Source: Mesorhizobium shangrilense
GTDB taxonomy: Bacteria; Pseudomonadota; Alphaproteobacteria; Rhizobiales; Rhizobiaceae
Length of the DNA stretch: 64,000 bases
Direction of reading: 5' to 3'
Assembly (NCBI RefSeq): GCF_028826155.1
Contig: NZ_JAQGPN010000001.1
Span: 558,001 to 622,000, forward strand
Positions 36,563-56,807 of the stretch are shown here, piece by piece. A program made the position numbers and the translations under genes. Positions within the stretch are counted from its first letter, which is position 1, and each line of letters begins with the position of its first letter. The notes under the pieces are model-generated. The model was not told the DNA's origin. It was given only the letters and a program-made list of their open reading frames with translations, and did not search any database.

Positions 36563-36688
36563 GCTGCTCCTCCCGTTCGTAAACGATCATTTTTCGATCG
36601 CATCGATACTGATTTGGTTTCCTTGTTGTTGCAAGGCGAAAATCATGGTTAGGTTTGCGATGGATGTCCTGCCGAGGGGGGAAGGCGC
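36563..36688. promoter_or_regulatory. Divergent promoter region with candidate DeoR sites
   Basis: This 126-base AT-richer gap separates the binding-protein and ATPase genes. It contains TCGTAAACGA (36577-36586, near-palindromic) followed by TTTTCGATCG, repeated TCG/CGA half sites of the kind used by DeoR-family proteins. The nearby deoR-type gene is the likely regulator. The sites are a visual call. Confidence 0.45.
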
Positions 36689-37756: not shown

Positions 37757-37761
37757 GCGCC

Positions 37762-40996: not shown

Positions 40997-42889
40997 ATGG
41001 AAATCCGGCAACTTTCTTATTTCCTGCTGGCCTGCCAGCACAAGAACCACGCGGAGGGCGCGGCACGATCCGGCCTTTCCGCATCGGCGCTGAGCGAGAA
41101 CCTCAACCTGCTCGAACGCGAGCTGGGGCTGACCATGTTTCAGCGCGGTCCGCTGGGCCATTACCCGACGGAGGCTGCCCGCTGGCTGTACCAGGCGGCC
41201 GAGCCGATCCTGCGGCTTGCCGAAGCGGCTGAAACCATCCTGACGCTGCCGGTGTCGCAAGAGATCCAGCGGATAGAGGTGAGGTCGCCGCTGCAGTTCA
41301 TGCTGGGTCGCCTTTCGCGGGCCGCCAGCCTCGCCGCGCGCGAGTTGCGCAGGATGCATCCCGAGGCCCTGGCAACCGTCAGCTTTGCCGACAGCGCTTC
41401 GCGCGAAGCATCCGTCCATGACCTGCCCGCACAACAGGAGCCGCCGCCTGCAGGTCGCGTGGTTCTGGACTATGCTGAAAGCGGCGGCGACGGCGCTTTC
41501 CTTTTCCTCGACGAATGGCTGTGCGTCACGCCGGCCGAACGCTTCGGCGACGACGAGAGGACCGTTCCGTTCGATATGCTGCGCAAGCTCCCCCTCTTCG
41601 TGCCGTCGCTGGCTCCGGCCCAGCTGGGGCAGGCGCGGGCCTATTGCGCAGCGCATGACCTTCCCGAGCCGACGGTGATCGAAGAGGACGTCGGGACCTT
41701 CCCGAAACTGTCGCGCGACGCCGCCCCCTTCTGCCTCCTGGCGCCCCAAAGCCTGGTTGCGGGAGGACTTGCGCGCCTTAACCTCGGCCACGCCAGGCTT
41801 CCGGCGGACCTTTCCAGCAAGGTCGTGGCGCGGATCGACGTCGATCATCCCGCGGCGCGCAGCTATGTCTCGCTGCTGCAGGCGATCGTGCAGGATCCGG
41901 ATCCGGTCGTGCTCTACGAGCCGAAGATCACGTTGAAGCAGATGCGCTACTTCCTGACGCTCTGCGAGCAGCTGAACGTCACGGCGGCGGCGCGCAAGCT
42001 GCACGTCGTCCAGCCGGCCCTGTCCAATCAGTTGCGCAAGCTCGAAACCGTGGTCGGCCGCAAGCTGTTCGTCCGGCACCGGACCGGCCTCGAGCCGACG
42101 CCCGACACCCGCCGGCTTGCCGAACTGTTCACGCCGGCAGTCGAACAGGCCGACCATATCGTCTTCCAGGCCGCACATCACGCCGCCACCCGCCATCAGC
42201 GGCTGTCGATCGGCTTCATCCCGATGATCAACCACGACGGTCCGCTGGTGCGGGCGATGACCGCGGCGCTGGAGGAATGGGGCCGTACCTATCCGAATGT
42301 GAAGCTGCAGATCAGCGAGGCGCCGACGCAGACACTGCATCGGTGGGTGGAGTCGGGAGCGATCAGCTTCGCGCTCGTCGAGGCGCATGTTTCGCGCATC
42401 TCGCAACTCGATCTCAATACGAGCGATGCGATCGGCGTCGTCTCGAGCGCGGCGGCAGAGTTGCTGCCGCCCGGCGTCGTTCCGCTGCGCCGGCTGACCA
42501 CTCTACCGCTCGTCCTGCCTGGCGAAGCGTTCGGGTTGCGCCAGATCCTCGACCGGGCCGCAGACCTGCGGCTCACCCCGCAGATGGAAGTCAATTCGTT
42601 GACGATGATCCTGGCGCTCATCCGGCGCATGCCGCTGGCAACGGTGCTGCCCCAGCATTCGGTGCAGCCTTATGTCGACGCCGGAATTCTCCAGTTCAAC
42701 CCGATCGTGGAGCCGGCCATCAGCCGGCGTCTGTCGATCCTGTTCTCGGCTTCGCGCACCCTTACCGAGATCGAGCGCAGCCTGATCGGCATCTTCCGCC
42801 AGAATCTGGCGCTCGCCGGCTTCACGCCGCCTGCAGCGAGCGATAGCGCGCCAGATGACGCTCGGCAGGACCATACACCAGTTCATTGA
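40997..42889 (+). CDS. Tandem LysR-type regulator (two LysR units in one chain)
   Basis: This 630-residue protein is twice the length of a LysR regulator. Residues 1-60 form one winged helix-turn-helix (LSYFLLACQHKN, GLSASALSENLNLLERELG) with an effector-binding region to about 305. Residues 311-370 form a second (MRYFLTLCEQLNVTAAARKL, VVQPALSNQLRKLE), followed by a second effector domain (GFIPMINHDGPLVRAM). There is no stop or frameshift between them. The 3' end overlaps the convergent acyl-CoA dehydrogenase gene by 68 bases. It is divergent from the broken hydrolase gene and next to the end of the large catabolic operon, which it may regulate. Confidence 0.88.
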   Translation: MEIRQLSYFLLACQHKNHAEGAARSGLSASALSENLNLLERELGLTMFQRGPLGHYPTEAARWLYQAAEPILRLAEAAETILTLPVSQEIQRIEVRSPLQFMLGRLSRAASLAARELRRMHPEALATVSFADSASREASVHDLPAQQEPPPAGRVVLDYAESGGDGAFLFLDEWLCVTPAERFGDDERTVPFDMLRKLPLFVPSLAPAQLGQARAYCAAHDLPEPTVIEEDVGTFPKLSRDAAPFCLLAPQSLVAGGLARLNLGHARLPADLSSKVVARIDVDHPAARSYVSLLQAIVQDPDPVVLYEPKITLKQMRYFLTLCEQLNVTAAARKLHVVQPALSNQLRKLETVVGRKLFVRHRTGLEPTPDTRRLAELFTPAVEQADHIVFQAAHHAATRHQRLSIGFIPMINHDGPLVRAMTAALEEWGRTYPNVKLQISEAPTQTLHRWVESGAISFALVEAHVSRISQLDLNTSDAIGVVSSAAAELLPPGVVPLRRLTTLPLVLPGEAFGLRQILDRAADLRLTPQMEVNSLTMILALIRRMPLATVLPQHSVQPYVDAGILQFNPIVEPAISRRLSILFSASRTLTEIERSLIGIFRQNLALAGFTPPAASDSAPDDARQDHTPVH

Positions 42890-43883
42890 CCAGGATGCGC
42901 TTGACGTAGCGGCCGACGACGCATTCGTCGGTCATGCCGATGGCGCCGTGTATCTGGATGGCCTCCTCGCAGATCGCCTTGCCTGACCACAGCGTCTGGA
43001 TCCAGGCCGCGGCGGCGAGCCCTGCGGCGTCTGCGTGCCCTTCATCGGCCGCCATCGTCGCGGTCATGACCAGCGAACGCGCCTCGTCGAGCTTGATCCA
43101 GAGATCGACCAGCCGGAACTGCAGGACCTGGAAGGATCCGATGGCGCGGCCGAACTGCTTGCGCGTCTTGGCATATTCGAGGGTGAGGTCGAAAAGGGTC
43201 TGCATCGCACCCAGGTTCTCGGCCGCCGCGGCAAGCAGCGCGGCATCCCTCGTGGCTGCGAGCACGCCACGGCCGTCGGCTCCGACTTCTATCCGCTGGG
43301 CGGCGGCGAGGGACGCATCGGCCATGTTGAGGCGAGCGGCCGCTCGACCGTCGGCGAGCGTCATGGCCCGAAGCTCGACGCCGCTGCCGTCGAGCGGGAC
43401 AAGGAACAGGGCGATGTCCGACGAGTTGTCCAGGCGGGCCGGCACCACCACCGCATCAGCACCATCGACGTCGAGCACCAGGATGCCGCTTCCGCTCAGG
43501 CGGTAATGGTCGCCATTCGGGCGCGCGATGGCCTTCACATCTTCGGGATCCGCAGCACAGGCCGCGGTGATCCGCGAACGCCCTTCGATGAGCGAAGACA
43601 AAGTATCGGAGTGCGCCGGACTGCGGGCCAGAACGCCCCCCGCCATCACGACGGACGGAATGAAGGGAACAGCCAGCGAGCCGGCTCCGAGGCCTTCCAT
43701 CACGACCATGGCGCCGATGCCTCCAAGGCCGATGCCGCCAACCGCTTCCGGAAGCGGCAGGCCGAGCCAGCCGAGTTCGGCGATTGTCGGCCAAAGGTCA
43801 CCGGGCGCCTCGGTGTGATCCTTGACGAAACGGGCCACGCTCTCCGCGAGCATCTGCGTTTCGCTGTCGAAAGAATAATCCAT
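42822..43883 (-). CDS. Acyl-CoA dehydrogenase family protein, small subunit type
   Basis: This 353-residue FAD-dependent acyl-CoA dehydrogenase-family protein begins with the usual N-terminal helices (FVKDHTEAPGDLWPTIAELGWLGL) and has the C-terminal bundle with YAKTRKQFGRAIGSFQVLQ and EEAIQIHGAIGMTDE. The middle beta domain is degenerate, and the catalytic Glu motif near the C-terminus is not recognisable (VNELVYGPAERHLA). Together with the next gene (5-base gap) it resembles the heteromeric enzymes of steroid and pimelate degradation, in which one chain is catalytically reduced. It is the last gene of the unit and overlaps the convergent lysR-type gene. Confidence 0.85.
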   Translation of the reverse strand: MDYSFDSETQMLAESVARFVKDHTEAPGDLWPTIAELGWLGLPLPEAVGGIGLGGIGAMVVMEGLGAGSLAVPFIPSVVMAGGVLARSPAHSDTLSSLIEGRSRITAACAADPEDVKAIARPNGDHYRLSGSGILVLDVDGADAVVVPARLDNSSDIALFLVPLDGSGVELRAMTLADGRAAARLNMADASLAAAQRIEVGADGRGVLAATRDAALLAAAAENLGAMQTLFDLTLEYAKTRKQFGRAIGSFQVLQFRLVDLWIKLDEARSLVMTATMAADEGHADAAGLAAAAWIQTLWSGKAICEEAIQIHGAIGMTDECVVGRYVKRILVNELVYGPAERHLARYRSLQAA

Positions 43884-43888
43884 ACCGA

Positions 43889-45064
43889 CTACCCCAGTCC
43901 CAGTATCTGCTTGGCAAGGATCATCCGCTGAATCTCATTGGATCCGCCCCAGATCGAGAGCTTGCGTTGGTTGAGATAGGTCGCGATCGCTCCGGCCGCC
44001 GACGGGTTTTCCGAGGTGGCCAGACCGTCGAGGAAGGCATCGGAATGCGGCAGACACGCCTGTCCATGGATGTCGATCCTCAGCTGCGAAAGCGCTTGGG
44101 CGATCTCCGTCCCCCTTATCTTCAGCTTTGACGCTTCAGGCCCGAGATTGTCGCCGGAAATGCTGCGGGCGAGCAGACGAAGCTCCATGTACTCGAGCGC
44201 AAGCAGCTCGACCTCGAGACGGGTCAGGCGGTCGGCGATGAACGCGTCCTCGTGACGGCCAAGATCGCGGGCATCCTCGCCAAGCTCCTTGAGGATACGC
44301 TTCGAGCGGGCGGACCCGGACATCGAGAAGCGTTCATGCTCGAGCAGGAACTTGGCGAACGTCCACCCCTCGCCCTCCTTGCCGATCATGTTTTCCGCCG
44401 GAACGCGGACATTGTCGAAGAAGACCTCGTTGAACTCGGCGTCGCCGTCGAGCGTCTTGATCGGACGCACGGTGATGCCCGGCGTGCGCATGTCGACGAG
44501 GAGGAAGGAGATGCCGAGCTGCGGCTTCACCGTCAGGTCGGTCTTGACCAGGCAGAACATCCAGTCGGCCCAGTTCGCCCAGGTCGTCCAGATCTTCTGG
44601 CCGTTGATCACGTAGGAATCGCCGTCGCGCGTGGCCGTGGTCCGCAGTGCGGCCAGGTCCGATCCTGCACCAGGCTCGGAATAGCCCTGGCACCAGAAAT
44701 CCCGGTTCTCGCGGATGCCCGGCAGGAAGCGCGCCTTCTGTTCGTCCGAGCCGAAGGTGTAGATGACCGGACCCGCCATCGCGATGCCGAACTGGCAGGG
44801 ATGCGGACAAGGCAGCGCGCCGTACTCCCTGTCGAACAGGTAGCGCTGGGTAGGCGTTAGCCCCGGCCCGCCGGCTTCCTTCGGCCAGCCGATGGCATAC
44901 CAGTTGGCCACCGCGAGGACAGCCTGCCACTGCACGTAGTCCTCGCGCGTCAGCCGCTGGTTGTAGCGAACCTTGTGGGCGAGCGCTTCCGGCAGGTTCT
45001 CGCCGAGATAGCTGCGGACGGAGCGGGCGAACGCCCTGTCCTCGTCCGAAAATCGCAGATCCAT
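43889..45064 (-). CDS. Acyl-CoA dehydrogenase, large subunit type
   Basis: This 391-residue acyl-CoA dehydrogenase has the FAD/substrate motif CQGYSEPGAGSDLA near 125, GQKIWTTWANWADW, and the C-terminal IWGGSNEIQRMILA. The last motif has Gly where medium-chain enzymes carry the catalytic Glu (YEGTSE), so the base may be the Glu of LLEHERFSM on helix G, as in long-chain and isovaleryl enzymes. The ATG at 45064 begins the homology; the longer frame lacks support. It is expected to introduce a 2,3-double bond into a CoA ester made by the upstream CoA-transferase. Confidence 0.9.
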   Translation of the reverse strand: MDLRFSDEDRAFARSVRSYLGENLPEALAHKVRYNQRLTREDYVQWQAVLAVANWYAIGWPKEAGGPGLTPTQRYLFDREYGALPCPHPCQFGIAMAGPVIYTFGSDEQKARFLPGIRENRDFWCQGYSEPGAGSDLAALRTTATRDGDSYVINGQKIWTTWANWADWMFCLVKTDLTVKPQLGISFLLVDMRTPGITVRPIKTLDGDAEFNEVFFDNVRVPAENMIGKEGEGWTFAKFLLEHERFSMSGSARSKRILKELGEDARDLGRHEDAFIADRLTRLEVELLALEYMELRLLARSISGDNLGPEASKLKIRGTEIAQALSQLRIDIHGQACLPHSDAFLDGLATSENPSAAGAIATYLNQRKLSIWGGSNEIQRMILAKQILGLG

Positions 45065-45101: not shown

Positions 45102-46286
45102 TCAGATGACGTCGGCCGCCCGCAGGGCGGCAATCTCGTCCGGGGTCGTGCCCAGCAGTTCCGACAGGATCGCCGGCCCGTCTCCGCCGAGCGCCGGCGC
45201 TGCACGCAACGCGCCGCGTTCCTGGCCGTGGATATGCACCGGCTGTTCCGGCAACCTGAGCGATCCGAGCGACGGATGCGCGACGGTCGTCATCAGCTTG
45301 CGGTGGTCGGCATGCGCGCTGTCGGCCGCCTCCGCGACATTCCAGATCATCGACGCCGGAATGCCCGCAGCGCCCAGACACTCGACCACGTCCGCCGCGG
45401 ACTTCTGGCGGGACCAGGTCTCGATTTCAGCGCGCAGGGCATCGCGGTTGAGGCGGCGCTGCTGGTCGGAGGAGAAACGCGCATCCTCGGCCATGGCGGG
45501 CCGTTCGATCGCCACGGCGAACCGCCGGAAGAGCGCATTGTTAGCGATCGCCAGAATGAAGTTTCCGTCGGCGGCGGCATAGGCGCCGAAAGGCGCCGAG
45601 AGGGGATGCTGATTGCCTTCGCGCCCCGGGGCGACCCTGGTCACCTGCCACTGGGCGAGCGCGGTCGGCAGCAACGTGAAGAGCGAATCGAACATCGCCA
45701 CGTCGAGCCGCGCCCCTTCACCCGTCGACTGTCGGCGGTAGAGCGCGGAGGAAATCGACCAGGCGGCAAACAGGCCGGACACGGTGTCGCCGACGGAATC
45801 GCCGACCAGCATCGGTTCCCCTTCGGGCGATCCGGTAATGCTCATCAGGCCCGACAGGGCTTGCGCCACGACGTCGTAGCTCGGAGAGCCGGCCAGCGGC
45901 CCCGATTGGCCGAAGCCGGAGATGGAGCAATAGATCAGGTCCGGACGCAGCTGGCGCAGCGATTCGTAGTCGATGCCGAGCTTGGCGGCGACGCCGGGGC
46001 GGAAGTTCTCGACGACGGCGTCGCATTGCGCCGCAAGCCGCCTCGCGATGTCGCGCCCCTCATCGCTCTTCAGATCGAGCTTGAGGCTGCGCTTGTTGCG
46101 GTTGATCAGTTCGAAGCTGACGCTGACGCCGTCGCGAAACGCACCCATCGACCTCTGGTCGTCGCCCGTGGGCGGCTCGACCTTGATGATGTCGGCCCCC
46201 ATGTCGGCCATCAGGGCCGTGCAGAAGGGGCCGGCGAGAACCCGACTGAAGTCGAGAACCCGGACGCCCGACAATAGCTTGGTCAT
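45102..46286 (-). CDS. CaiB/BaiF-family (type III) CoA-transferase
   Basis: This 394-residue family III CoA-transferase moves CoA from a donor ester to a carboxylic acid. It starts with the typical LLSGVRVLDFSRVLAGPFCT and ADIIKVEPP, includes NRNKRSLKLDLKS and VVENFRPG, and keeps the catalytic Asp in ARLDVAMFDSL near residue 195. It is encoded between the TRAP permease and the acyl-CoA dehydrogenases, so it probably activates the acid that the TRAP system imports. Confidence 0.92.
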   Translation of the reverse strand: MTKLLSGVRVLDFSRVLAGPFCTALMADMGADIIKVEPPTGDDQRSMGAFRDGVSVSFELINRNKRSLKLDLKSDEGRDIARRLAAQCDAVVENFRPGVAAKLGIDYESLRQLRPDLIYCSISGFGQSGPLAGSPSYDVVAQALSGLMSITGSPEGEPMLVGDSVGDTVSGLFAAWSISSALYRRQSTGEGARLDVAMFDSLFTLLPTALAQWQVTRVAPGREGNQHPLSAPFGAYAAADGNFILAIANNALFRRFAVAIERPAMAEDARFSSDQQRRLNRDALRAEIETWSRQKSAADVVECLGAAGIPASMIWNVAEAADSAHADHRKLMTTVAHPSLGSLRLPEQPVHIHGQERGALRAAPALGGDGPAILSELLGTTPDEIAALRAADVI

Positions 46287-46325: not shown

Positions 46326-47630
46326 CTACCGCAGCAGGTCGGGCAGCCAGGTCGCGAGCTGCGGGAACAGGACGACAAGCAGAAGGGCCACGACGTTCGC
46401 GATCAGGAATGGCGTGATGCCCCGGAATATCGCCCCGAGCGCGATGTCCGGCCGCAAGCCCTTGATGACGAAGACATTGATGCCGACAGGTGGCGTGATC
46501 ATGCCGATCTCGATCACCATGACGTTCACGATGCCCCACCAGACGAGGTCGTATCCGAGGCTCTCGACGAGGGGAATCACGAAGGGCAGCGTCAGCACCA
46601 TGCCGGCCAGTGCGTCGAAGACGCAGCCCAGCACGATGTACATCCCGATCAGGATGAAGATCACCGCGATCGGCGGCACGTTGAGATCCGTCACCCATTG
46701 GGTCAGCGCGCCCGGCATGTGCGACAAGGTCACGAAGTAGCCGAAGATGTTGGCGCCGATGACGATCAGATAGAGCATCGCGATCGAGCCGGCGGAATCG
46801 TAGAGCGTCTCGAAGAACGTCTTCTTGTCCATCGAGCGGCGGGCCAGCGCGAAGATCAGGGTGAGCACGAGGCCGACGGCGGCGCCTTCGTTGACGGTGA
46901 AGAAGCCGGTGTAGATGCCGCCCATGACGATGATGATGATGGCAAGCGCGGCCCAGCTGCGCTTGGTTTCCTTCACCCGGGTCGGCCAGTTCAGCCGCTC
47001 GCCGGCGGTGGCAAGCTTGGGCTGAATCATCAGCTGGATGCGGATCGCCAGAACGAACAGGACGACCGAAAGGATGCCCGGCACGATGGCGGCAAGAAAC
47101 AGGTCGATGATGAACTGCTGAACCTGCACCGCATAGATCACCATGATGATCGATGGCGGGATCAGCGACCCGAGCGTGCCGCCCGCGGCAAGGGTGCCCG
47201 CGCAGAGCGACAGCGCATAGTTGCGCTTCTCCATCTCGGGCATGGCGATCTTGGTCATCGTCGCGGCGGTCGCGATGGACGAGCCGGATATGGCGCCGAA
47301 CCCCGCGCAGCCGAGGATGGTGGCCATGGCGAGCCCGCCCTTCCAATGGCCGATCCAGGCATTGGCGACGCGGTAGATGTCCGCCGAGATGCCAGCCGCG
47401 CCGGCGAAACCGCCCATCAGCAGGAAGGACATCACCACCGCGAAGTCCTTGTTGGTGAGCATGTTGACCGTCTCGGTGCCGAACAGCGAGAACATGCCCG
47501 AAAGGTCGCCCGTCATGTAGAGATAGCCGGCCGCACCGACCGCGGCCATGGCTACGCCGACGGGCACGTGAAGCATGATGACCGCAACGAGGCAGGCCAG
47601 CCCCAGCACGCCGATTTCAATCGGTCCCAT
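46326..47630 (-). CDS. dctM: TRAP transporter large permease (DctM)
   Basis: This 434-residue DctM/SiaM large subunit with about 12 hydrophobic segments catalyses Na+- or H+-driven uptake of organic acids. Family landmarks are the early VPVGVAMAAVGAAGY, LLMGGFAGAAGIS, AGFGAISGSSIATAATMTKI, AGGTLGSLIPPSIIMVIYA and the late MITPPVGINVFVIKG. The gap to the small-permease gene is only 3 bases. Confidence 0.95.
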   Translation of the reverse strand: MGPIEIGVLGLACLVAVIMLHVPVGVAMAAVGAAGYLYMTGDLSGMFSLFGTETVNMLTNKDFAVVMSFLLMGGFAGAAGISADIYRVANAWIGHWKGGLAMATILGCAGFGAISGSSIATAATMTKIAMPEMEKRNYALSLCAGTLAAGGTLGSLIPPSIIMVIYAVQVQQFIIDLFLAAIVPGILSVVLFVLAIRIQLMIQPKLATAGERLNWPTRVKETKRSWAALAIIIIVMGGIYTGFFTVNEGAAVGLVLTLIFALARRSMDKKTFFETLYDSAGSIAMLYLIVIGANIFGYFVTLSHMPGALTQWVTDLNVPPIAVIFILIGMYIVLGCVFDALAGMVLTLPFVIPLVESLGYDLVWWGIVNVMVIEIGMITPPVGINVFVIKGLRPDIALGAIFRGITPFLIANVVALLLVVLFPQLATWLPDLLR

Positions 47631-47633
47631 CTT

Positions 47634-48176
47634 TTATTCGCCCGTCTGCGCAGGCGCGACCACATCGTCCGCCAGGGGTTGATCGGCCAGCGGCCGCGGT
47701 GAAAGGGAACGGCGCAGGTAATAGATGACCTGCGTGAGCTGCACCGGAACGCACAAGATGAACAGCGCCGTCACCAGCACCCAGATCGGCCACACCGGGA
47801 TGTAGAGCAGCCAGGTCGTCTGGCCGGTGCCGTAGATGTCGACGGTGTATTTGACGAGCTGGTAGGCGATGACCGCCATTGCGGCCAACATGATCGTATG
47901 GCCGACAAGATCCAGGATTTCGCGCACCCGCCAGTGAGCCATTCCGGCAAAGCGCACGGCGACATGCTGGTTGTTGGCCAGCGAGGCAGGGAAGCAGGCC
48001 GCGGCCGCGACCACGACGATGAGATCGGCGATGTCGCTGAAACCCGAAATCGGGGAGGAGAAGAGTTCCCGACCGGCGATGTCCGCCATCATCACGATGG
48101 AGAGCACGACGAGCGCGGCCAGCCCGAGCGTCGCGAGCGAACGGGACGCCCTGCGTATGTATTCGAGGAAAGCCAT
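47634..48176 (-). CDS. dctQ: TRAP transporter small permease (DctQ)
   Basis: This 180-residue DctQ subunit with four hydrophobic segments shows the usual RELFSSPISGFSDIADL and ANNQHVAVRF patterns. It pairs with DctM in the inner membrane. The gene lies between the binding-protein gene (59-base gap) and dctM. The C-terminal tail is proline- and alanine-rich and variable. Confidence 0.9.
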   Translation of the reverse strand: MAFLEYIRRASRSLATLGLAALVVLSIVMMADIAGRELFSSPISGFSDIADLIVVVAAAACFPASLANNQHVAVRFAGMAHWRVREILDLVGHTIMLAAMAVIAYQLVKYTVDIYGTGQTTWLLYIPVWPIWVLVTALFILCVPVQLTQVIYYLRRSLSPRPLADQPLADDVVAPAQTGE

Positions 48177-48235: not shown

Positions 48236-49255
48236 TTACTTGGAAGCGCGCACCGCGTCGCGAGCCGCGATCATCTGCTGGTAGAGGTTGGCGTCGCCAT
48301 CACCCGTGTCCCAGCTGCTCTTGATCGAAGAGAGCTTTTCGGAAAGGCCCTTCACCTCGTCCTCCGAAAACTCCACGATGTGGTGCTTGTCGTCAGCCTT
48401 GAGCTTGGCGAGCGTCTCTTCGTTCTGCAGGTCGAGGTTCTCCGCCAGCACGGTCGTGAACCACTCGCCGCGGACCTTGTCGAGCGCGGCCTTCGCCTTC
48501 TCCGGCAGGCTGTCGTACTTGGCCTTGTTCATCGGGAACAGGACGGCGACGTTGCCGAGCGGAACGTTGACGACGTGGTAGTGGGCGGCATCCGCGATGC
48601 GGAAGTTGTAGAGGTTGCCCATGTCCATCAGGGCGCCGCCGATAACGCCGCGCGAGATGTTCTCGGCGATCTGCGGGGCAGGCATGCCGCCCACGGCAAC
48701 GCCGCCAATGCCCCCCACGACCGCACCCTGCACGGCGCCGCCGGCACGCAGCTTGATGCCTGCGAGGTCCTCCGCCTTTGCCACTTCCTTGGAGGTGTGA
48801 ACGTAGTACGGACCGACTTCAGCGATACCCACGAGCTCGAGGTTGTCGAAGCCGCTCAGCAGGCCCTTCTGATAGAGCGTCCAGGCGGTCAGGCTCGCTT
48901 CCAGCGTCGATTCGAAGACGAAGGGCGTCTCGAACATCTCGAGTTCCCTGAAGCGGCCCGGCGTGTAGGAGGCGACCACCTCGGCGATATCGACCACGCC
49001 GTCCTCGACCAGCTTCAGCTGCGTGGTCGGGTTCGGGCCGAGCGTGCCGCCGGGATAATGCTCAACCTTGAGCGTGCCTTCAGAAGCCTCCTCGATCGCC
49101 TTGATGAAGGCCGGAACCGAGATCGCATTGGTCTTGCTCTGGGGCGGGAAGGCGCTTGCGAATTTGAGAACGATCGGTTCCTGCGCAAATGCCGTACCGG
49201 CCATGCAGGTACCAAGCAAGAATGCCGTCGTCGCAAGCAGTTTGCCAATCATCAT
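48236..49255 (-). CDS. dctP: TRAP transporter substrate-binding protein (DctP)
   Basis: This 339-residue periplasmic DctP-family receptor has a signal peptide (MMIGKLLATTAFLLGTCMAG, cleavage after AFAQ), then LKFASAFPPQSKTNAISVPA and VEHYPGGTLGPNPTTQLKLV. The family Arg that binds the substrate carboxylate lies in IKLRAGG near residue 162. The ATG at 49255 has GGGAGA upstream. It should capture the acid degraded by the operon; the specificity cannot be read. Its gene is separated from ubiX by 187 bases, suggesting an extra promoter. Confidence 0.93.
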   Translation of the reverse strand: MMIGKLLATTAFLLGTCMAGTAFAQEPIVLKFASAFPPQSKTNAISVPAFIKAIEEASEGTLKVEHYPGGTLGPNPTTQLKLVEDGVVDIAEVVASYTPGRFRELEMFETPFVFESTLEASLTAWTLYQKGLLSGFDNLELVGIAEVGPYYVHTSKEVAKAEDLAGIKLRAGGAVQGAVVGGIGGVAVGGMPAPQIAENISRGVIGGALMDMGNLYNFRIADAAHYHVVNVPLGNVAVLFPMNKAKYDSLPEKAKAALDKVRGEWFTTVLAENLDLQNEETLAKLKADDKHHIVEFSEDEVKGLSEKLSSIKSSWDTGDGDANLYQQMIAARDAVRASK

Positions 49256-49442: not shown

Positions 49443-50006
49443 CTACTCCTTCCAGCGTTTCACCCGGCCCGTATCGACGTCGAAAAGGTCGAGCGCCCGG
49501 CCCACCGTGTGGTCGACGATCTCGTCGACGCTCTCCGGCTTCGGATAGAACGCCGGCACGGGCGGCATGACGATTCCGCCCATTTCCGTGACAGCGACCA
49601 TGTTGCGGCAATGGCCGAGGTGCAACGGCGTCTCGCGGAATAGGAGAACGAGCCGCCGCCGCTCCTTCAGGCAGACATCGGCAGCCCGCGAGACGAGGGT
49701 TCCGCAAGCGCCGGACGCTATCTCGCCGAGCGTCTTGGCCGAGCATGGCGCGATGATCATCCCTGCCGTGCGGAACGACCCGCTCGAGATGGGCGCGGCG
49801 ACATCTTCGTTGGAGTGGACGTGGTCGGCGAGCGCCTGCACGTCCTTCAGCTTCATGTCGCTCTCGTAGGCGAGAGCCACCACTGCCGATCTCGACATGA
49901 CGAGATGCGTCTCGAAGTCTAGTTCGCGCAGGGCCTCCAGAAGCCTTATCCCATAAGGGTGGCCGGAGGCCCCGGTTATCGCGATGATGAAACGCTTTCT
50001 CGGCAC
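49443..50006 (-). CDS. ubiX: UbiX-family flavin prenyltransferase
   Basis: This 187-residue UbiX makes the prenylated FMN cofactor that UbiD decarboxylases need. The N-terminal FIIAITGASGHPYGIRLLE binds FMN, and SSGSFRTAGMIIAPCSAKTLG and RETPLHLGHCRNMV are family motifs. It is 20 bases after the ubiD-like gene, so it probably serves that enzyme rather than general ubiquinone synthesis. Confidence 0.92.
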   Translation of the reverse strand: MPRKRFIIAITGASGHPYGIRLLEALRELDFETHLVMSRSAVVALAYESDMKLKDVQALADHVHSNEDVAAPISSGSFRTAGMIIAPCSAKTLGEIASGACGTLVSRAADVCLKERRRLVLLFRETPLHLGHCRNMVAVTEMGGIVMPPVPAFYPKPESVDEIVDHTVGRALDLFDVDTGRVKRWKE

Positions 50007-50026
50007 TGCTGTCTTTCCGTAGGTCT

Positions 50027-51388
50027 TCAGTAGAGGTCCAGATCCCGTCGGACGCGCTCATAGATGTCTTTCGGCGGCCTGGCGAATTCCGAGCGGCCTC
50101 CGGCCTCTCCGTCGCCGGGCCGGGTGGCGGCGACCATGCCGATCTTGGTCACCACCAGATCCTCGTGGACCGGATCGCAGCGGTCGGCCTTGACGCCCGG
50201 CAGCACGATCAGGTCCTCGTCGCCGCGGAAACGGGCAGCCAGGGACCATTCGACCTGCCGCGGGTCTTCGGGGTCCACGTCGTCTTCGACCACGATAACC
50301 AGCTTCAGGAGATTGACGAGCCCCATGGCGAGCAGGACCGCCCTCTTGCCCTCTCCGAGCCGCGGCCGGTGCATGACGATGACCGCATGCAGCCGACCCA
50401 TCCCGCCGTCGGTGACGAAGACGCGCCGCACCGCCGGGATCGAACGCTGCAGGTCGCGCGTCAGGGTGGTTCCGATCGCCACCGCGCCGATCAGGCAGTG
50501 CTCGGCCGCGTAGCCGGGCACGATGGCCTGATAGATTGCGTCGCTGCGGTGGGTGACGCAGTCGATTTCGACGCCGATTCCCGGTCCGTAGTAGACGTAG
50601 AAGCCGGGAAACTCGGACACCGCGTTCTCTTCGATCAGGTCGCCGGGCCGCAGCCGTCCTTCGAGCACGATTTCCGCGTGGGCCGGAACCTCGAGGTCGA
50701 CAGTCCGGCACTTCACGAGTTCCACAGGCTCGCCGAGCAGCCCGCCGACGATGTCGAACTCGTCGTCGCCCAGCTCGACATACATCTGCGATCCGATCAG
50801 CACGGCCGCATGGTTGCCGATCGCAACGGCCATCTCGAGATCATGGCCGCGCTGGCGGGCTTTCTCGGCGATGATCGCCAGGTGATGGTTCCTAGCGATG
50901 CCCGCCATGAGAATGTTGCCGCCCTCGAGCCGCAACCGGGCGATGGAGACGTTGCGGCGCCCCGTCTCGGGATCCTTGGCGACGATGACGCCTGCAGTGA
51001 TGTAGGGCGCGCCTTCGCGTTCGAACCAGTGCGGCACGGGCAGGAGCGCGCCGACGTCGATCGCATCCGAGTGCACCACCTGCTGCACCGGGGCGTCCGC
51101 CACCAGCACCGGCTTGATGGGGTTCCGGAGCGCGGCGAGGCAGGTCGCGTCGAGATCCTTCGCCGCCACGCCGAGCCCGCGCGCGAAACGGTCGCGGCTG
51201 TTGAAGAGGTTGCCGATGACCGGCATGGCGTGGCCGGCGACGTTATCGAACAGCTGGGCAGGACCGCGTTCCCGCAGCGCCAGCACCGAGGCGATCTCGA
51301 ACCGCGGATCGACGTCGCGCTTGACGCGATGCAGTTCGCCATCCGCTTCGAGGTCCGAAAAGAGGGCGCGCAGGCTCTGGTCCTTCAT
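50027..51388 (-). CDS. UbiD-family (de)carboxylase
   Basis: This 453-residue member of the prenyl-FMN-dependent UbiD family decarboxylates (or carboxylates) unsaturated or aromatic acids. Landmarks are PYITAGVIVAKDPETGRRNV near 128-147, ARLRLEGG, and VPAHAEIVLEG at 234-244 holding the Glu residues of the active site. The ATG at 51388 starts the homology, with AAGGGGAA upstream. It is 13 bases after the urocanase-like gene and 20 before ubiX. Its substrate is unknown; an acrylate-type heterocyclic acid such as a urocanate analogue would suit UbiD chemistry, which is inference. Confidence 0.9.
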   Translation of the reverse strand: MKDQSLRALFSDLEADGELHRVKRDVDPRFEIASVLALRERGPAQLFDNVAGHAMPVIGNLFNSRDRFARGLGVAAKDLDATCLAALRNPIKPVLVADAPVQQVVHSDAIDVGALLPVPHWFEREGAPYITAGVIVAKDPETGRRNVSIARLRLEGGNILMAGIARNHHLAIIAEKARQRGHDLEMAVAIGNHAAVLIGSQMYVELGDDEFDIVGGLLGEPVELVKCRTVDLEVPAHAEIVLEGRLRPGDLIEENAVSEFPGFYVYYGPGIGVEIDCVTHRSDAIYQAIVPGYAAEHCLIGAVAIGTTLTRDLQRSIPAVRRVFVTDGGMGRLHAVIVMHRPRLGEGKRAVLLAMGLVNLLKLVIVVEDDVDPEDPRQVEWSLAARFRGDEDLIVLPGVKADRCDPVHEDLVVTKIGMVAATRPGDGEAGGRSEFARPPKDIYERVRRDLDLY

Positions 51389-51401
51389 GCGACGTTTCCC
51401 C

Positions 51402-53051
51402 TTACTGGTCCGAAAGGCGGAAGTGTCGAACCCCGCTCTTGGCGACTTCGTCGAACGACTCCTCATAGCCGGCATCGGCGTAGCGCATCACGCCGGTCGC
51501 GGTGTCGTTGGTCAGCGTCAGCTCGAGGCGTTCGTCGGCTTCCGCCGAGCCGTCGGCGATCAGCGTCACGCCTGAGCTCGTCATGTAGCCCGAATAGCCG
51601 CCGCCGCCCGAATGGATCGCCACCAGATCCGCCTGCGAGGCGCAGTTGACCAGCGCGTTGAGAAGCGGCCAGTCGGCGATTGCGTCCGAACCGTCCTTCA
51701 TGTTCTCGGTCATGATGTTGGGATGCGCCATCGCGCCGGCATCCAGGTGATCGCGCGTGAAGGCGACGGGACCCGACAGCACGCCCTCGCGCACCATGCG
51801 GTTGACCGCGAGGCCGAGCTCCGTGCGCTCGCCGTGGCCCAGCCAGGCGATGCGCGCCGGCATGCCCTCGACCGGGACGTGCTCGCGGGCAAGGTTGATC
51901 CAGTTCGTGACGATCTTGTTGCCGGCGAAATGCTCGAGCAGGAAGTCGTCGATCTTGCGGATGTCGTCGGCATCGTTCGACAGCGCGATCCAACGGAACG
52001 GGCCGATGGCGCGGGCAAACAGCGGCCGGAGGAAGGCTTCGGTGAAGACGGGAATGTCGAACGCGTTGGCGACGCCGCCGTTCTTCGCCTGCGTGCGGAT
52101 GAGGTTGCCGTTGTCGAAGACGACGGCGCCGGCCTTCTGGAAGCCCAGCATCGCCTCGACATGCTTGACGATCGACCGCGTCGACTCGCCCATCAGGCGC
52201 TCGGGCGCCTCCTTGCGGAGCCGGCGCACCTCGTCCAGCGACAGGCCGGCGGGCACGTAGCCGTAGACGAGGTCGTGCGCCGAGGTCTGGTCGGTGACGA
52301 CGTCGGGGATGATGCCACGCGTCAGGATCTCAGGGAAGATGTCGGCAGCGTTGCCGCACAGGCCGACGGACAGCGCCTTCTTCTCGGCCTGGGCCTTGCG
52401 GATCATGTCGAGCGCCTCGTCGAGCGAGCCGGCCTTGGTGTGCAGGTAGCCGACCTGCATGCGCTTCTCGATGCGCTTCTCGTCGATCTCGACGCAGAGG
52501 ATCGCCGCGCCTGCCATCGCGCCGGCGAGCGGCTGCGCGCCGCCCATACCGCCGAGGCCCGCGGTGAGAACGAAACGTCCCGCGAGATCGCCGCCGAACT
52601 TCTGCTCGGCAATGCGCATGAAGATCTCGTAGGTGCCCTGGATGACGCCCTGCGAACCGATGTACTGCCAGTCGCCCGCCGTCAGCCCGCCCCAGCAGAT
52701 CAGGTTCTGCCTTTCCCAGGCATAGAAGTTCTCGGCCTTCGCCCATTGGCCGACCATGTTGCAGTTGGCCATGACCACGACCGGGGCTTTCGCGTGCGTA
52801 CGCACGATGCCGATCGGCTTGCCGGACTGCACGATCAGCGTCTCGCCGTCGTTCATGGTCTTCAGCGATTCGACGATGCGGTCATGCGAGGGCCAGTCAC
52901 GCGCCGCACGCCCAAGGGCCGCGTAGACGATCAGGTTGTCCGGATCCTCGCCGACGGCGAGCACGTTTTCGAGAAGCCGCAGGAGGCCTTCCTGGCGCCA
53001 GCCCTTGCAGCGCAGGTCGGATCCCGAGGTGACAGTGAAGGAACGCTTCAT
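51402..53051 (-). CDS. Urocanase-family hydratase, divergent (candidate (S-methyl)thiourocanate hydratase)
   Basis: This 549-residue protein has the full urocanase fold: GSDLRCKGW, the NAD-binding LTAGLGGMGGAQPLA (162-176), GNAADIFPE, VTDQTSAHD and DGSDAIADWPLLNAL. Two active-site regions differ from histidine-pathway HutU. The Cys of the HutU motif RICWVGLGDR is Ala402 here (RIAWLGHGER), and the HHGGG-type loop is HSGGGGYSGYMTSSG (480-494). No hutH, hutI or hutG lies nearby, but a DUF917 desulfurase, a carbamoylase and a hydantoinase do. The better reading is a hydratase for thiourocanate, S-methyl-thiourocanate or a similar urocanate analogue. True urocanase activity remains possible. Confidence 0.88.
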   Translation of the reverse strand: MKRSFTVTSGSDLRCKGWRQEGLLRLLENVLAVGEDPDNLIVYAALGRAARDWPSHDRIVESLKTMNDGETLIVQSGKPIGIVRTHAKAPVVVMANCNMVGQWAKAENFYAWERQNLICWGGLTAGDWQYIGSQGVIQGTYEIFMRIAEQKFGGDLAGRFVLTAGLGGMGGAQPLAGAMAGAAILCVEIDEKRIEKRMQVGYLHTKAGSLDEALDMIRKAQAEKKALSVGLCGNAADIFPEILTRGIIPDVVTDQTSAHDLVYGYVPAGLSLDEVRRLRKEAPERLMGESTRSIVKHVEAMLGFQKAGAVVFDNGNLIRTQAKNGGVANAFDIPVFTEAFLRPLFARAIGPFRWIALSNDADDIRKIDDFLLEHFAGNKIVTNWINLAREHVPVEGMPARIAWLGHGERTELGLAVNRMVREGVLSGPVAFTRDHLDAGAMAHPNIMTENMKDGSDAIADWPLLNALVNCASQADLVAIHSGGGGYSGYMTSSGVTLIADGSAEADERLELTLTNDTATGVMRYADAGYEESFDEVAKSGVRHFRLSDQ

Positions 53052-53065
53052 GGATGCGGACGCTT

Positions 53066-54151
53066 TCAGCCGAGGGCGTAGTCAGTGAGGTTGATGCCAA
53101 GCGCCTTCTCGACGCTCGGATAGACGGACGGATCGGTGGCGCTCGACGACAGCGGGATCACGTCCTTGGCAATGCGCAGCACCAAAAGTTCCATGCCCTC
53201 GCGGACCTCGCCGACGCTCATCGGCACGCCGTTCACATCGAGGGTGGTGATGACGTCCGGATAAGAAGAGAGGCGCTCGCCGTCGCGCTCGGCCGCCATG
53301 TATTCGTTCATGACGTGGAGGACGCAGGCGTCCTTGCCGTCGCCGATCGTCACTGTCCCCACATCGAACGCCTCGTTGGTATAGACGACCGCCTTCCTGG
53401 TCACCTTGCCCTGGCTGATGATCTCGCCCCTGGTTTCCTTGCAGATGGCGTCGATCACGGCCGCGCCGCCCTTGCCTTCCGCGGCGATGATCGCTTCGCC
53501 GAGCGACAGCGCCATCGAGATGCCGCCGAGCGCGGCATGCTGGCGGACATAGGACGCCGGGACCGGGTTGCGGCAGGATGCGATGAAGCCCCCGGACATG
53601 TCGGAAGCCGTGCGCAGGATCGGCGAGACCTTGGCGGTGGCGCCGCGCACGACGAGCTCGATATAAGCGTTCTTCGAGCGATTGCCGCCGACCGCCGACT
53701 GGATCATCGGCTCCGGCGAATTGGCAAGACCGATCGAGCCCATGTCGCCCGTCGGATGGGCGCGAATGTCGCCGACCGCGTCGACGACCTTGGTGCCGAG
53801 GATCGCGCTGGGAAGCCAGCCGTTGAGCGTGCTCGACTTGCCGTTCTGCCCAATCATCAGCCCGTAGATCGGCGCGCCGAGCTCCTTCTGGACCAGCTGC
53901 ACGGCCTTCACGTAGTCGATGCCCAGCATCTGCCACTCGGTGGTGCTGGCCGGCGCCCCGATCGCGGCGGCGGTGGCGATCCAGGCGTCGTCCGGCACTT
54001 CGTCCATCGACACCAGTTCCGGCTGGCCGGCATTGACCGCCGCCGTTCCCAGCATGCGGCCATGATCGGCCCACCCGCCACCGCCGGCGGCGTAGACAGC
54101 GCCGCCCTTGACGGCAGCCTCGACGTCGCTTGCGCGAAGAATGCGACCCAT
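53066..54151 (-). CDS. DUF917 / S-methyl-thiohydantoin desulfurase family protein
   Basis: This 361-residue protein belongs to the former DUF917 family, whose Pfam domain is now named after S-methyl thiohydantoin desulfurase. Typical features are the glycine-rich N-terminus YAAGGGGWADHGR, a central PTGDMGSIGLANSPEP, and the C-terminal domain with MNEYMAAERDGERLSSYPD. The enzyme class removes the sulfur substituent of a thiohydantoin, giving hydantoin-propionate. It is encoded 14 bases upstream of the urocanase-like gene and 2 bases after the carbamoylase gene, exactly where an (S-methyl)ergothioneine pathway would need it. The family name is recalled; activity is inferred. Confidence 0.82.
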   Translation of the reverse strand: MGRILRASDVEAAVKGGAVYAAGGGGWADHGRMLGTAAVNAGQPELVSMDEVPDDAWIATAAAIGAPASTTEWQMLGIDYVKAVQLVQKELGAPIYGLMIGQNGKSSTLNGWLPSAILGTKVVDAVGDIRAHPTGDMGSIGLANSPEPMIQSAVGGNRSKNAYIELVVRGATAKVSPILRTASDMSGGFIASCRNPVPASYVRQHAALGGISMALSLGEAIIAAEGKGGAAVIDAICKETRGEIISQGKVTRKAVVYTNEAFDVGTVTIGDGKDACVLHVMNEYMAAERDGERLSSYPDVITTLDVNGVPMSVGEVREGMELLVLRIAKDVIPLSSSATDPSVYPSVEKALGINLTDYALG

Positions 54152-54153
54152 GA

Positions 54154-55443
54154 TCAGTTCTCCCGGTCTCTTTGCGTTTGTTCAGCGCCAGCGTCGAAGC
54201 GCAGCACGGCTTCATAGATGGCGGCCGCACCCGCCGCTATGGCGTCGGGCTCAGCCCATTCCTCCGGCGCATGGCTGCGGCCGTCGCGGCACGGAACGAA
54301 CACCATGGCGCTCGGCGCGAAACGCGCGACGAATGCCGCGTCATGACCCGCACCCGACGCCATGGAAAGCGTTGAAAATCCGAGGTCGCGGGCGCTCTGC
54401 GTCAGCAGTTCGCGCAAGCGAGGATCGCACGCGGTCGGTTTCGCGTCGGACAGGATGTTCCACGCGTTTCGCGCGACGCCGCCTGCTTCGGCGATGGCCG
54501 CAGTGGCTTCGTCCAGTTCAGCCATGAACTCATGCACGAGCGCCTGGTCTTCGCCGCGTATGTCGAAGACGATGCGCGCCTGGCCGGGCACCACGTTCGA
54601 GGCATTCGGCGCAAGCTCGACCACGCCGGCCGTGGCGACGAAATGGCCGCGGCCCGCCGCAGCAAGCTCCTTCGCCCGGTCCGCCGCGAAGGCGATCGTC
54701 CGGGCGGCCGCCGCGCCGGCGTCCCGACGAAGATCCATCGGCGTCGTGCCGGCATGGTCCGCACGCCCCTCGAACCTGATCTCGACGCGCGCGATCCCGA
54801 CGATCGCGGTGACGATGCCCAGGTCGATCCCGCGGCTTTCCAGGACGATCCCCTGCTCGATATGCAGCTCGAAGAAGGCGGCGACGTCCTGTCGGAGCGC
54901 CTGTTCCAGATTGGCGACCTTGCCACCCACACGGTCGATGGCGTCGCCGAGGCGCTCGCCGACGCCGTCACGATAGTCGAGCATCTCCGGTGCAAGCGCG
55001 CCGGCCATGGCCCGGCTTCCGATGCAGGAAAGGCCGTGCTCGCTCGGCTCCTCGGCCAGGAAATCCACCACCTCGACGGCGTGCTTCAGCACCTTGCCGG
55101 ACTCGCGAAGCGAACGCAGCGCCTCGAGCGCTGTGAGGACGCCGGCGATGCCGTCGAAGCGGCCGCCGGACGGAACCGTGTCCGAATGGGAGCCCATCAT
55201 GATCGTGCCGGCCGAAGGGTCGCTGCCCTCCAGACGGCCGATCAGGTTGCCGCCCGCATCAAGACGAACCGTGAGGCCCGCCTCCTCGAAACGGCGCGTC
55301 AGCCACGCCCTGCCTTCAAGGAAAAGGGCGGAGAAGGACCGGCGCGTATACGGCTTGCCTGGCTCGGTGATCTCGGCCAGCGCCATCAGGTCGGCCCACA
55401 GCCGGGCGCCGTCCACCGGCAGGTTGGACTGCGCCTTCATCAT
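54154..55443 (-). CDS. M20-type N-carbamoyl-amino-acid hydrolase (hydantoinase/carbamoylase family)
   Basis: This 429-residue Zn-dependent amidohydrolase belongs to the group of L-carbamoylase, beta-ureidopropionase and allantoate amidohydrolase. Metal motifs are MGSHSDTVPSGGRFDG (near 83-98), LAEEPSEHG and ELHIEQGIVLES; RADHAGTTPMDLRRDA is the substrate/dimer region. In this cluster it would cleave N-carbamoyl-glutamate (or an analogue) to the amino acid, CO2 and ammonia. It overlaps the hydantoinase gene by 4 bases. Confidence 0.9.
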   Translation of the reverse strand: MMKAQSNLPVDGARLWADLMALAEITEPGKPYTRRSFSALFLEGRAWLTRRFEEAGLTVRLDAGGNLIGRLEGSDPSAGTIMMGSHSDTVPSGGRFDGIAGVLTALEALRSLRESGKVLKHAVEVVDFLAEEPSEHGLSCIGSRAMAGALAPEMLDYRDGVGERLGDAIDRVGGKVANLEQALRQDVAAFFELHIEQGIVLESRGIDLGIVTAIVGIARVEIRFEGRADHAGTTPMDLRRDAGAAAARTIAFAADRAKELAAAGRGHFVATAGVVELAPNASNVVPGQARIVFDIRGEDQALVHEFMAELDEATAAIAEAGGVARNAWNILSDAKPTACDPRLRELLTQSARDLGFSTLSMASGAGHDAAFVARFAPSAMVFVPCRDGRSHAPEEWAEPDAIAAGAAAIYEAVLRFDAGAEQTQRDREN

Positions 55444-56807
55444 CGCTCCGTCGCCACGGCCGGGGTCACGAAGCGCCCCTGCCCCGGCTCCGCCAGGACC
55501 CGCGCGCCGTCGAACGCCAGCTCGCCGCGCAGGAAGGTCGCCACCGGCCGGTACGGCAGCTCGATGCCCTCATACGGGCTCCAGCCGACGACGTTGTGGC
55601 CGCTTGCCGCGGCATCGTAGCGGCGCGGATCGTGCGCCATCACGACGATGTCCGCATCCCGGCCAGGTTCGAGCGCGCCCTTGCGGTGCCCGATGCGGAA
55701 CAGCCGGGCCGGATTGGACGCCAGCAGCCGCGCCGCCCAGACCGGGCTGAGCTCGCGCTCGACCAGGCCCTTGAGCAGCAGCGAATAGAGCGCCTCGAGC
55801 CCAGGCACGCCCGACGAGTTCTTCAGCATCACCGGATCGCTCTTGCGATCTTCCGACCAGCTGACGTGATCGGTCGAAACGACGGTGATGTTGCCCGCCG
55901 CAAGATGCCGCCACAAAGCCTCGACCTCGCGGCGCGGGCGTACCGGCGGATTGATCTTCGCCTTGCCACCGAGGCGCGCGACGTCGTTTTCCTCGTCGAG
56001 CACCAGATAGTGGATGCACGCCTCGATGGTCGCGTCATGCCCCTGCATGCGGTAGGCGTTGCAGAGCTGGTAGCCGCGGTCGATCGAGCAATGCACGATA
56101 TGGCTGGCGCAGCCCGTCGCCGCGCCGATCTCGTAGACTTCCGCAGTGGCCAGCGCCTCGGCGAGCGGCGGGCGCGACATGCCGTGCGCGCGATAGTCGG
56201 CGATGCCCAGTCGGGCGACCTCCGCCTCGAAGGCGCGCACCGTCTCGTCGTGCTCGTTGTGCGCGCCGGCGATCAGGCCGTGGCGGGCGATCTCGGAGAA
56301 GCACGCGTGCAGCGTGTACGGCGTGATGCGCGGAAAGCGCTCCGGATGCGTGCCGAAGGTGGAGAACTTGAATCCGGCAGCGCCTGCCGCGACCATCTCG
56401 GCGATATGCTTCGGCCCGTCCTTCGGATGGACCGTGCCGTAGAGCGCAAAGTCAACCCGCGCCTGCTGGCCAGCTTCCTCGGCCTTGCGGGTCAGTCGCT
56501 CGCCGGTGCAGATCAGATTGCCGTCGTCATAGGGCATGTCGACGATCGTGGTTACCCCGCCGGCGGCCGCCGAACGGGTCGACCATATGAAATCCTCCTG
56601 GCCGGACTGCGAGCGCGAATGCACCTGCGCATCGATGGCCCCCGGCAGCACGAAGGCGTCGCCGAAGTCGTGACGCTCGCGCGCGGACGGCGGCGTTCCT
56701 TCGCCGACCCGCTCGACCACGCCTGCGCGAACGGCGACATAGCCGTTTTCGCGAACCCTGTCCGTGCCGACGACACGGCCTGTGACTACAAGATCAAAAT
56801 CGCTCAT
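55440..56807 (-). CDS. Cyclic amidohydrolase (dihydropyrimidinase/hydantoinase/allantoinase type)
   Basis: This 455-residue amidohydrolase-superfamily enzyme opens a cyclic amide such as a hydantoin. The carboxylated Lys147 lies in AGFKFSTFG, His183 in GAHNEHDE, His239 in SHIVHCS and Asp313 in STDHVSW. The first metal motif reads DAQVHSRS (59-66): Gln61 replaces the first His of HxH, a change known in some dihydroorotase-like proteins. The ATG at 56807 has AGGAG upstream; the longer frame is unsupported. It is the first gene of the cluster and is coupled to the carbamoylase by a 4-base overlap, a classical hydantoin-degrading pair. Confidence 0.9.
   Translation of the reverse strand: MSDFDLVVTGRVVGTDRVRENGYVAVRAGVVERVGEGTPPSARERHDFGDAFVLPGAIDAQVHSRSQSGQEDFIWSTRSAAAGGVTTIVDMPYDDGNLICTGERLTRKAEEAGQQARVDFALYGTVHPKDGPKHIAEMVAAGAAGFKFSTFGTHPERFPRITPYTLHACFSEIARHGLIAGAHNEHDETVRAFEAEVARLGIADYRAHGMSRPPLAEALATAEVYEIGAATGCASHIVHCSIDRGYQLCNAYRMQGHDATIEACIHYLVLDEENDVARLGGKAKINPPVRPRREVEALWRHLAAGNITVVSTDHVSWSEDRKSDPVMLKNSSGVPGLEALYSLLLKGLVERELSPVWAARLLASNPARLFRIGHRKGALEPGRDADIVVMAHDPRRYDAAASGHNVVGWSPYEGIELPYRPVATFLRGELAFDGARVLAEPGQGRFVTPAVATER

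Follow-up and report, generated by a model that had tools for sequence, protein, structure and literature searches.

An ergothioneine-type operon in Mesorhizobium shangrilense with candidate alternative entries to thiourocanate

Gene content of the operon and identity of its core enzymes

We analyzed a window of 64,000 nucleotides from Mesorhizobium shangrilense (RefSeq assembly GCF_028826155.1, contig NZ_JAQGPN010000001.1, positions 558,001 to 622,000, forward strand); coordinates below are those of the window unless a locus is named. At 56807..49443, on the minus strand, lie six genes in the order ErtD, ErtE, ErtC, ErtB, UbiD, UbiX (the names ErtB and ErtC are coined here by analogy; the NCBIfam library supplies only ErtD and ErtE). 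ErtD and ErtE overlap by 4 bases, the gaps between ErtE and ErtC and between ErtC and ErtB are 2 and 14 bases, UbiD follows ErtB after 13 bases if it starts at the ATG at 51388 (a start at the first ATG of its frame, 51475, would overlap ErtB), and UbiX follows UbiD after 20. The first-pass annotation of this DNA, made from the sequence alone, had described six genes in one direction with overlaps or gaps of 2-20 bases, and our check of the open reading frames confirmed their coordinates and order. The interval it drew, 49443..56807, does hold these genes and is too short: the same-strand run goes on past UbiX to 42822, and its gene set left out a tripartite ATP-independent periplasmic (TRAP) transporter, a coenzyme A (CoA)-transferase and two acyl-CoA dehydrogenase subunits (Table 1).

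All four enzymes from ErtB to ErtE score above the NCBIfam cut-offs for the plain (non-S-methyl) ergothioneine pathway, in agreement with the earlier proposal of an ergothioneine-type cluster with four of the five steps. Pfam places ErtB in the urocanase family (6e-83) and finds S-Me-THD domains in ErtC (1.2e-23 and 1.4e-16), and ErtC is the sole match in the genome to the thiohydantoin desulfurase model at E 0.001. The family identity of the four proteins is well established by these models. The first-pass annotation had also pointed to the S-methyl variant of the pathway on the strength of the DUF917 family. The enzyme families, urocanase and S-Me-THD, are indeed shared with S-methyl-ergothioneine degradation, but both S-methyl models fall short of their cut-offs (NF058531, 747.8 of 880, for ErtB; NF058532, 278.7 of 450, for ErtC) whereas the plain models exceed theirs; the S-methyl pathway is therefore rejected in favor of the plain thiourocanate series. 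The divergent urocanase is, as had been supposed, not HutU: the hutU model gives 701 bits (above its cut-off of 375) versus 1026.8 for the thiourocanate hydratase model, and the genuine HutU, 53% identical to the window urocanase, is a distinct gene next to HutH elsewhere in the genome. The window resembles bacterial ergothioneine degradation in these four enzymes and differs from it in carrying UbiD/UbiX, the CoA-transferase, two dehydrogenase subunits and the TRAP transporter, and in that no ergothionase was found in the genome.

Table 1. Genes of the operon and its flanks, and further lyases at relatives' loci
Feature	Position	Strand	Basis
ErtD-type hydantoin-5-propionate amidohydrolase	55440..56807	-	NF058538 785.9 bits, cut-off 600
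ErtE-type N-carbamyl-L-glutamate amidohydrolase (M20)	54154..55443	-	NF058540 585.0 bits, cut-off 520; M20 9.3e-29
Thiohydantoin desulfurase, ErtC (DUF917/S-Me-THD family)	53066..54151	-	NF058529 611.1 bits, cut-off 440
Thiourocanate hydratase, ErtB (urocanase family)	51402..53051	-	NF058530 1026.8 bits, cut-off 930
UbiD-family decarboxylase dependent on prenylated flavin mononucleotide (prFMN)	50027..51388	-	Pfam UbiD 2.9e-54; E-R-E residues; loop E-x-x-V-S-E
UbiX flavin prenyltransferase (makes prFMN for UbiD)	49443..50006	-	TIGR00421 233.7 bits, cut-off 108.9; Flavoprotein 2.8e-41
TRAP solute-binding protein DctP	48236..49255	-	PF03480 1.4e-29; start picked by eye
TRAP small permease DctQ	47634..48176	-	PF04290 7.5e-15
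TRAP large permease DctM	46326..47630	-	PF06808 3.5e-80
Family III CoA-transferase (CaiB/BaiF type)	45102..46286	-	PF02515 9.6e-123
Acyl-CoA dehydrogenase, large-subunit type	43889..45064	-	Best NCBIfam pimC_large 388.2, below cut-off 623.85; start by eye
Acyl-CoA dehydrogenase, small-subunit type	42822..43883	-	Best NCBIfam pimD_small 203.4, below cut-off 652.7
Tandem LysR-like regulator, 630 aa	40997..42889	+	PF00126 two stretches, PF03466 one; two helix-turn-helix units, one recognised effector domain
Metallo-beta-lactamase-fold hydrolase, possibly in set	39934..40824	-	PF12706 2.4e-10; start by eye
ABC transporter ATPase	36689-37756	+	
ABC transporter permease	37762-39402	+	
ABC transporter binding protein	35573-36562	-	
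Further MIO-less lyase	L169:8353-9909		
Further MIO-less lyase	L168:7947-9815		
Further MIO-less lyase	L147:7635-9089		
Further MIO-less lyase	L166:779-2233		

Distribution of ergothionase-type lyases and UbiD

Ergothionase is described in a review as lacking 4-methylideneimidazole-5-one, MIO (PMC13405746). The first-pass annotation had noted the missing lyase and called for a genome search, and a search of the whole genome (5,545,526 bases, completeness 100) for PF00221 found no ergothionase, that is, no lyase of this family without the MIO triad. Its single match is HutH, which adjoins HutU and retains the MIO motif GASGDL. As for ergothioneine synthesis by the host, only one family, PF10017, was looked for, and it gave no match. 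When 58 lyase-like frames from the surveyed loci were aligned, the triad was absent in 56, which carry GCA-D, GQA-D, GEA-D or GKA-D (4 of the 56 are two genomes counted twice); it is retained in two frames, HutH of the window genome and a frame at locus L049. Comparison with solved structures was made for one rhizobial lyase, L036, whose closest match is ergothionase 6s7j (1.8e-54; next best 4.3e-38). Such lyases may carry the annotation histidine ammonia-lyase.

The sample of relatives' loci was drawn by an ErtC scan of genome contigs, from which the best 80 of 373 matches were kept; 70 of these also carry ErtB by threshold and are called named loci. Within the stretch examined at each, an ergothionase-type lyase is present in 47, UbiD in 13, both in none and neither in 10. 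Fisher's exact test gives p = 2.4e-8 for this exclusion, a value that is not corrected for kinship and that includes stretches stopping at contig ends. Loci that combine UbiD with ErtBCDE are found among both alpha- and betaproteobacteria, in differing gene orders. On a tree of ErtD the UbiD label requires four changes, at least three of which are forced by well-supported branches; the pairing of UbiD with Ert genes therefore arose or was lost more than once.

Counting the window, the 13 named loci and one plasmid, there are 15 UbiD-ErtBC loci. A PF00221 search covering 10 of these 15 genomes, the window's included, saw no MIO-less lyase (L048, L049, L070, L093 and the plasmid carrier L148 lay outside the search). 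Among the 10, the metagenome-assembled genome (MAG) G154 has zero PF00221 matches; in Herbaspirillum there is a C-terminal PF00221 fragment without the motif region. The entry problem, in which no ergothionase is found and other modules are present, is real and recurrent.

Under a 90% rule, zero alignment columns separate UbiD-linked from lyase-linked copies of ErtB, ErtC, ErtD or ErtE (14, 15, 14 and 14 sequences versus 54, 54, 54 and 49), and the columns conserved in both settings number 302, 184, 127 and 101, respectively. Sixty-three ErtB columns set both groups apart from HutU (95% rule; only 4 HutU sequences). The lack of separating columns indirectly favors the same chemistry from thiourocanate onward in both settings, and thiourocanate is probably still the shared intermediate.

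A different explanation of the exclusion is that ergothioneine is still the substrate and that UbiD, or the CoA-transferase/dehydrogenase module, removes trimethylamine instead of ergothionase. Exclusivity at the locus level would fit a simple replacement of this kind, and in Pandoraea and Herbaspirillum the loci with UbiD retain the type of major facilitator superfamily transporter that is seen with the lyase in Caballeronia and Achromobacter. We nonetheless regard it as improbable: on chemical grounds we see no plausible way for an enzyme of either class to remove the alpha-trimethylammonium group, two genomes pair the CoA module with a MIO-less lyase, and several other UbiD copies adjoin a MIO-less lyase of their own.

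Other arrangements were seen among the loci. Two from Methylobacteriaceae MAGs (L052 and L054) have ErtDECB, and no PF00221 match was found in either MAG, both of which may be incomplete; the genome of one of them (G162) holds a member of the UbiD clade at a separate place. Nine loci of a Bosea/Microvirga type (L065, L073, L077, L081, L083, L085, L089, L094 and L108) carry ErtC, ErtD and ErtE but no ErtB within the stretch, and two genomes of this type (G164, G165) have no ErtB above cut-off. The neighbors at L065 include a flavin reductase, an FAD-linked oxidase and a protein of the dihydrodipicolinate synthase family. These ErtCDE loci perhaps represent another desulfurase-dependent route.

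The UbiD clade and the CoA-transferase/dehydrogenase module

The window UbiD has the three UbiD domains (N, middle and C), the E-R-E residues and a companion UbiX, as do HmfF, AnInD (7p9q) and PA0254/HudA. It differs from HmfF-type UbiDs in belonging to a separate clade, in its loop, E-x-x-V-S-E rather than EGPFGE, and in its ergothioneine-type gene context. In a tree of 26 proteins, the 22 UbiDs with the E-x-x-V-S-E motif (present in 22/22) form one branch (100/100); HmfF and three similar UbiDs, which carry EGPFGE, fall outside it. Loci L171 to L173, whose UbiDs are more distant, entered as outgroup only, and L177 and L178 were left out. Thirteen of the 22 members are the window's or entered through ErtC, and are biased to Ert loci; the other nine entered through UbiD searches, three of them from genomes already picked for an Ert locus.

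Nineteen of the 22 members lie near Ert-type enzyme genes (within about 8 kb) and the other three near a MIO-less lyase, one of them with an ErtE fragment as well. The UbiD of Thalassospira marina is accompanied by ErtBCDE and a TRAP transporter, and those of Ensifer canadensis and Rhizobium jaguaris by ErtD, ErtE, UbiX and a tandem LysR, with a MIO-less lyase in addition in R. jaguaris. A lyase of the R. jaguaris type, UbiX and LysR surround the UbiD of R. freirei and that of R. tropici CIAT 899, where ErtE is present only as a fragment; the UbiD of R. tropici PTD1 adjoins another MIO-less lyase, as does that of G070, where ErtD and ErtE are present too. ErtD and ErtE are about 8 kb from UbiD in Allorhizobium ampelinum, and in a Methylobacteriaceae MAG UbiD stands between an S-methyl-thiourocanate hydratase (over its cut-off) and HutU. 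On plasmids there were 11 UbiD matches, of which H5 to H9 and H11, all Agrobacterium vitis, were left out of the context survey. Among 398 genomes sampled from the phylum, UbiD at 69% identity or more occurs in two, the window's and G070, and at 38 to 39% in three further genomes, two of these proteins lying outside the clade and one being unplaced in the tree.

Another reading is that UbiD and UbiX are an ordinary ubiquinone or furan-dicarboxylate decarboxylase pair, here by chance. The solved structures closest to the window UbiD are 6h6x and 6h6v, the second of which is called HmfF in a published report (PMC8988006), and one source's listing (847 proteins, given without gene context) names some relatives 2,5-furandicarboxylate decarboxylase. 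The ubiquinone model, however, gives 171.1 bits versus a cut-off of 788, so that role is rejected, and HmfF is outside the clade with a different loop; we give the idea of a chance neighbor little credence. No active-site numbers for HmfF were found in open papers. HudA, another UbiD enzyme, gave 1.3% conversion of imidazole-4-carboxylate and none of imidazole-2-carboxylate, in the test shown (PMC7976604).

Two more kinds of PF00221 lyase without the MIO triad, GAS-D and GAG-E, adjoin the UbiD clade in rhizobia. The GAS-D kind scores 144 bits with ergothionase 6s7j and 134 bits with histidine ammonia-lyases, a small margin in favor of the former. The substrates of these lyases are perhaps other betaines.

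The second module recurs as well. Of the 70 named loci, 7 combine ErtB and ErtC with the CoA-transferase and both dehydrogenase subunits: two of Nitratireductor, two of Pandoraea, and one each of Bordetella trematum, Cohaesibacter and Terasakiella. Their transferases are 50 to 72% identical to that of the window, and their large dehydrogenase subunits 56 to 77%; recurrence of both modules in relatives is clear from gene content. The adjacent dehydrogenase genes are pimC- and pimD-like (pimeloyl-CoA dehydrogenase subunits), both under cut-off, and presumably form one enzyme. In the carnitine-crotonobetaine CoA cycle of CaiB and CaiA, a family III CoA-transferase is found beside an acyl-CoA dehydrogenase. 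The window has the same pairing, but scores 128.6 of 413 with the carnitine CoA-transferase model and 66.1 of 540 with that for crotonobetainyl-CoA dehydrogenase, and has two dehydrogenase subunits, nearest to the pimeloyl-CoA models. Glutarate catabolism was rejected for this module (succinate-glutarate CoA-transferase, 292.5 of 750; glutaryl-CoA dehydrogenase, 81.3 of 470).

It is also conceivable that thiourocanate from other microbes is imported directly, and that UbiD/UbiX and the CoA-transferase/dehydrogenase genes are mere neighbors acting on another aromatic or acyl acid. ErtB to ErtE would suffice once thiourocanate was inside the cell, TRAP transporters import acids, and the two modules also occur apart, with UbiD lacking the CoA module in nine named loci and the reverse in three within the stretch examined. 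Against mere adjacency stand the association of UbiD with ErtBCDE across alpha- and betaproteobacteria in varied gene orders, the fact that each of the 22 clade members has Ert-type genes or a MIO-less lyase nearby (13 of the 22 are the window's or came in by way of ErtC), and the mutual avoidance of UbiD and ergothionase-type lyases at loci. We consider direct import unlikely.

Proposed route and neighboring genes

The genes suggest that the substrate is a sulfur-imidazole acid different from ergothioneine. Judging from gene families and their recurrence, we estimate a probability of about 0.6 that the operon turns thiourocanate into glutamate and is fed by the CoA/dehydrogenase and UbiD modules, not from ergothioneine. 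The idea in the first-pass annotation that the input is thiourocanate or a different imidazole acid holds up, with added support from the UbiD and lyase counts at relatives' loci.

We infer the substrates of the transporter and of both modules as follows. The TRAP transporter would import an organic acid; transporters of this family suit an acid better than a betaine. In the first module, the CaiB-type CoA-transferase would activate a saturated side chain, the two-subunit acyl-CoA dehydrogenase would carry out alpha-beta dehydrogenation to thiourocanoyl-CoA, and CoA exchange would free thiourocanate. The simplest candidate for its substrate is 3-(2-thioxo-imidazol-4-yl)propionate, which gut anaerobes reportedly form by reducing thiourocanate. 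In the second, the prFMN decarboxylase UbiD, with UbiX, would act ahead of hydration and decarboxylate a (thio)imidazole acid on its ring or side chain. From thiourocanate onward, family assignment gives the known four-step route: ErtB hydrates thiourocanate, ErtC desulfurises the product with release of H2S, ErtD hydrolyses hydantoin-5-propionate, and ErtE hydrolyses N-carbamyl-glutamate to glutamate. In Bacteroides xylanisolvens, thiourocanic acid is reported to sustain both growth and ATP synthesis (PMC13405746).

Several observations weigh against this reading. The 70 named loci are the best-matching part of a longer list, the UbiD copy at L062, one of the 13, has an internal stop, and Cohaesibacter has a MIO-less lyase some 6 kb outside the counted stretch, apparently on the same contig. 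Exclusion of UbiD and lyase is not absolute at the genome level: among 32 genomes with a lyase-type Ert locus that were searched for this UbiD, two, R. freirei and R. tropici PTD1, have it at a separate locus. Both B. trematum and Cohaesibacter carry the CoA/dehydrogenase module together with a MIO-less lyase; the module therefore seems to provide a further entry and not simply to replace the lyase. G070 combines a MIO-less lyase, UbiD, ErtD and ErtE, with no ErtC match and no ErtB above cut-off, a gene set that a strict thiourocanate role of UbiD does not explain; in view of G070, R. freirei and R. tropici PTD1, the substrates of UbiD may form a wider class than thiourocanate precursors. Lastly, we know of no natural ring-carboxylated thiourocanate.

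A broader scheme can be put forward tentatively, as a possibility that we rate below even odds. The genes may belong to an unrecognised sulfur-imidazole branch, in which the UbiD clade would decarboxylate (thio)imidazole acids, some of them freed from betaines by MIO-less lyases, while the CoA-transferase/dehydrogenase pair would oxidise thio-imidazole propionate, the reduced product of anaerobes, both converging on thiourocanate. Among the matches listed from the open-access literature (subscription papers lay outside the search), none linked UbiD or the CoA module to ergothioneine breakdown.

Ergothioneine is a widespread dietary antioxidant, found in mushrooms. If there are other entries to the thiourocanate pathway, natural sulfur-imidazole acids remain uncatalogued, and counts of ergothionase genes underestimate how many microbes contribute to this cycling of sulfur and nitrogen. 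An imidazole-linked UbiD clade, if real, would extend prFMN enzymes to a new class of substrates. Cross-feeding of thiourocanate among gut anaerobes is reported (PMC13405746).

Beyond the dehydrogenase genes, the 630-residue LysR-like regulator converges on the operon and the metallo-beta-lactamase-fold hydrolase is divergent from the regulator. Homologues of this regulator turn up at loci with UbiD or the CoA module (L047, L048, L058, L063, L069, L146, L147 and L176), and a single chain with two helix-turn-helix units was confirmed for the window and for L058, L063 and L146. The hydrolase is 62 to 74% identical to proteins whose genes adjoin the ergothionase-type lyase gene in the betaproteobacteria Achromobacter, Polaromonas and B. 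trematum; its N-terminal start looks, by eye, like a secretion signal.

Farther out, 35573-39402 encodes an ATP-binding cassette (ABC) transporter of spermidine/phosphonate-like type. On the other side, 57061-63893 holds two long frames on the minus strand whose products resemble large surface proteins, with no tie to the operon seen; the second contains near-identical tandem repeats of roughly 115 residues, as judged by eye.

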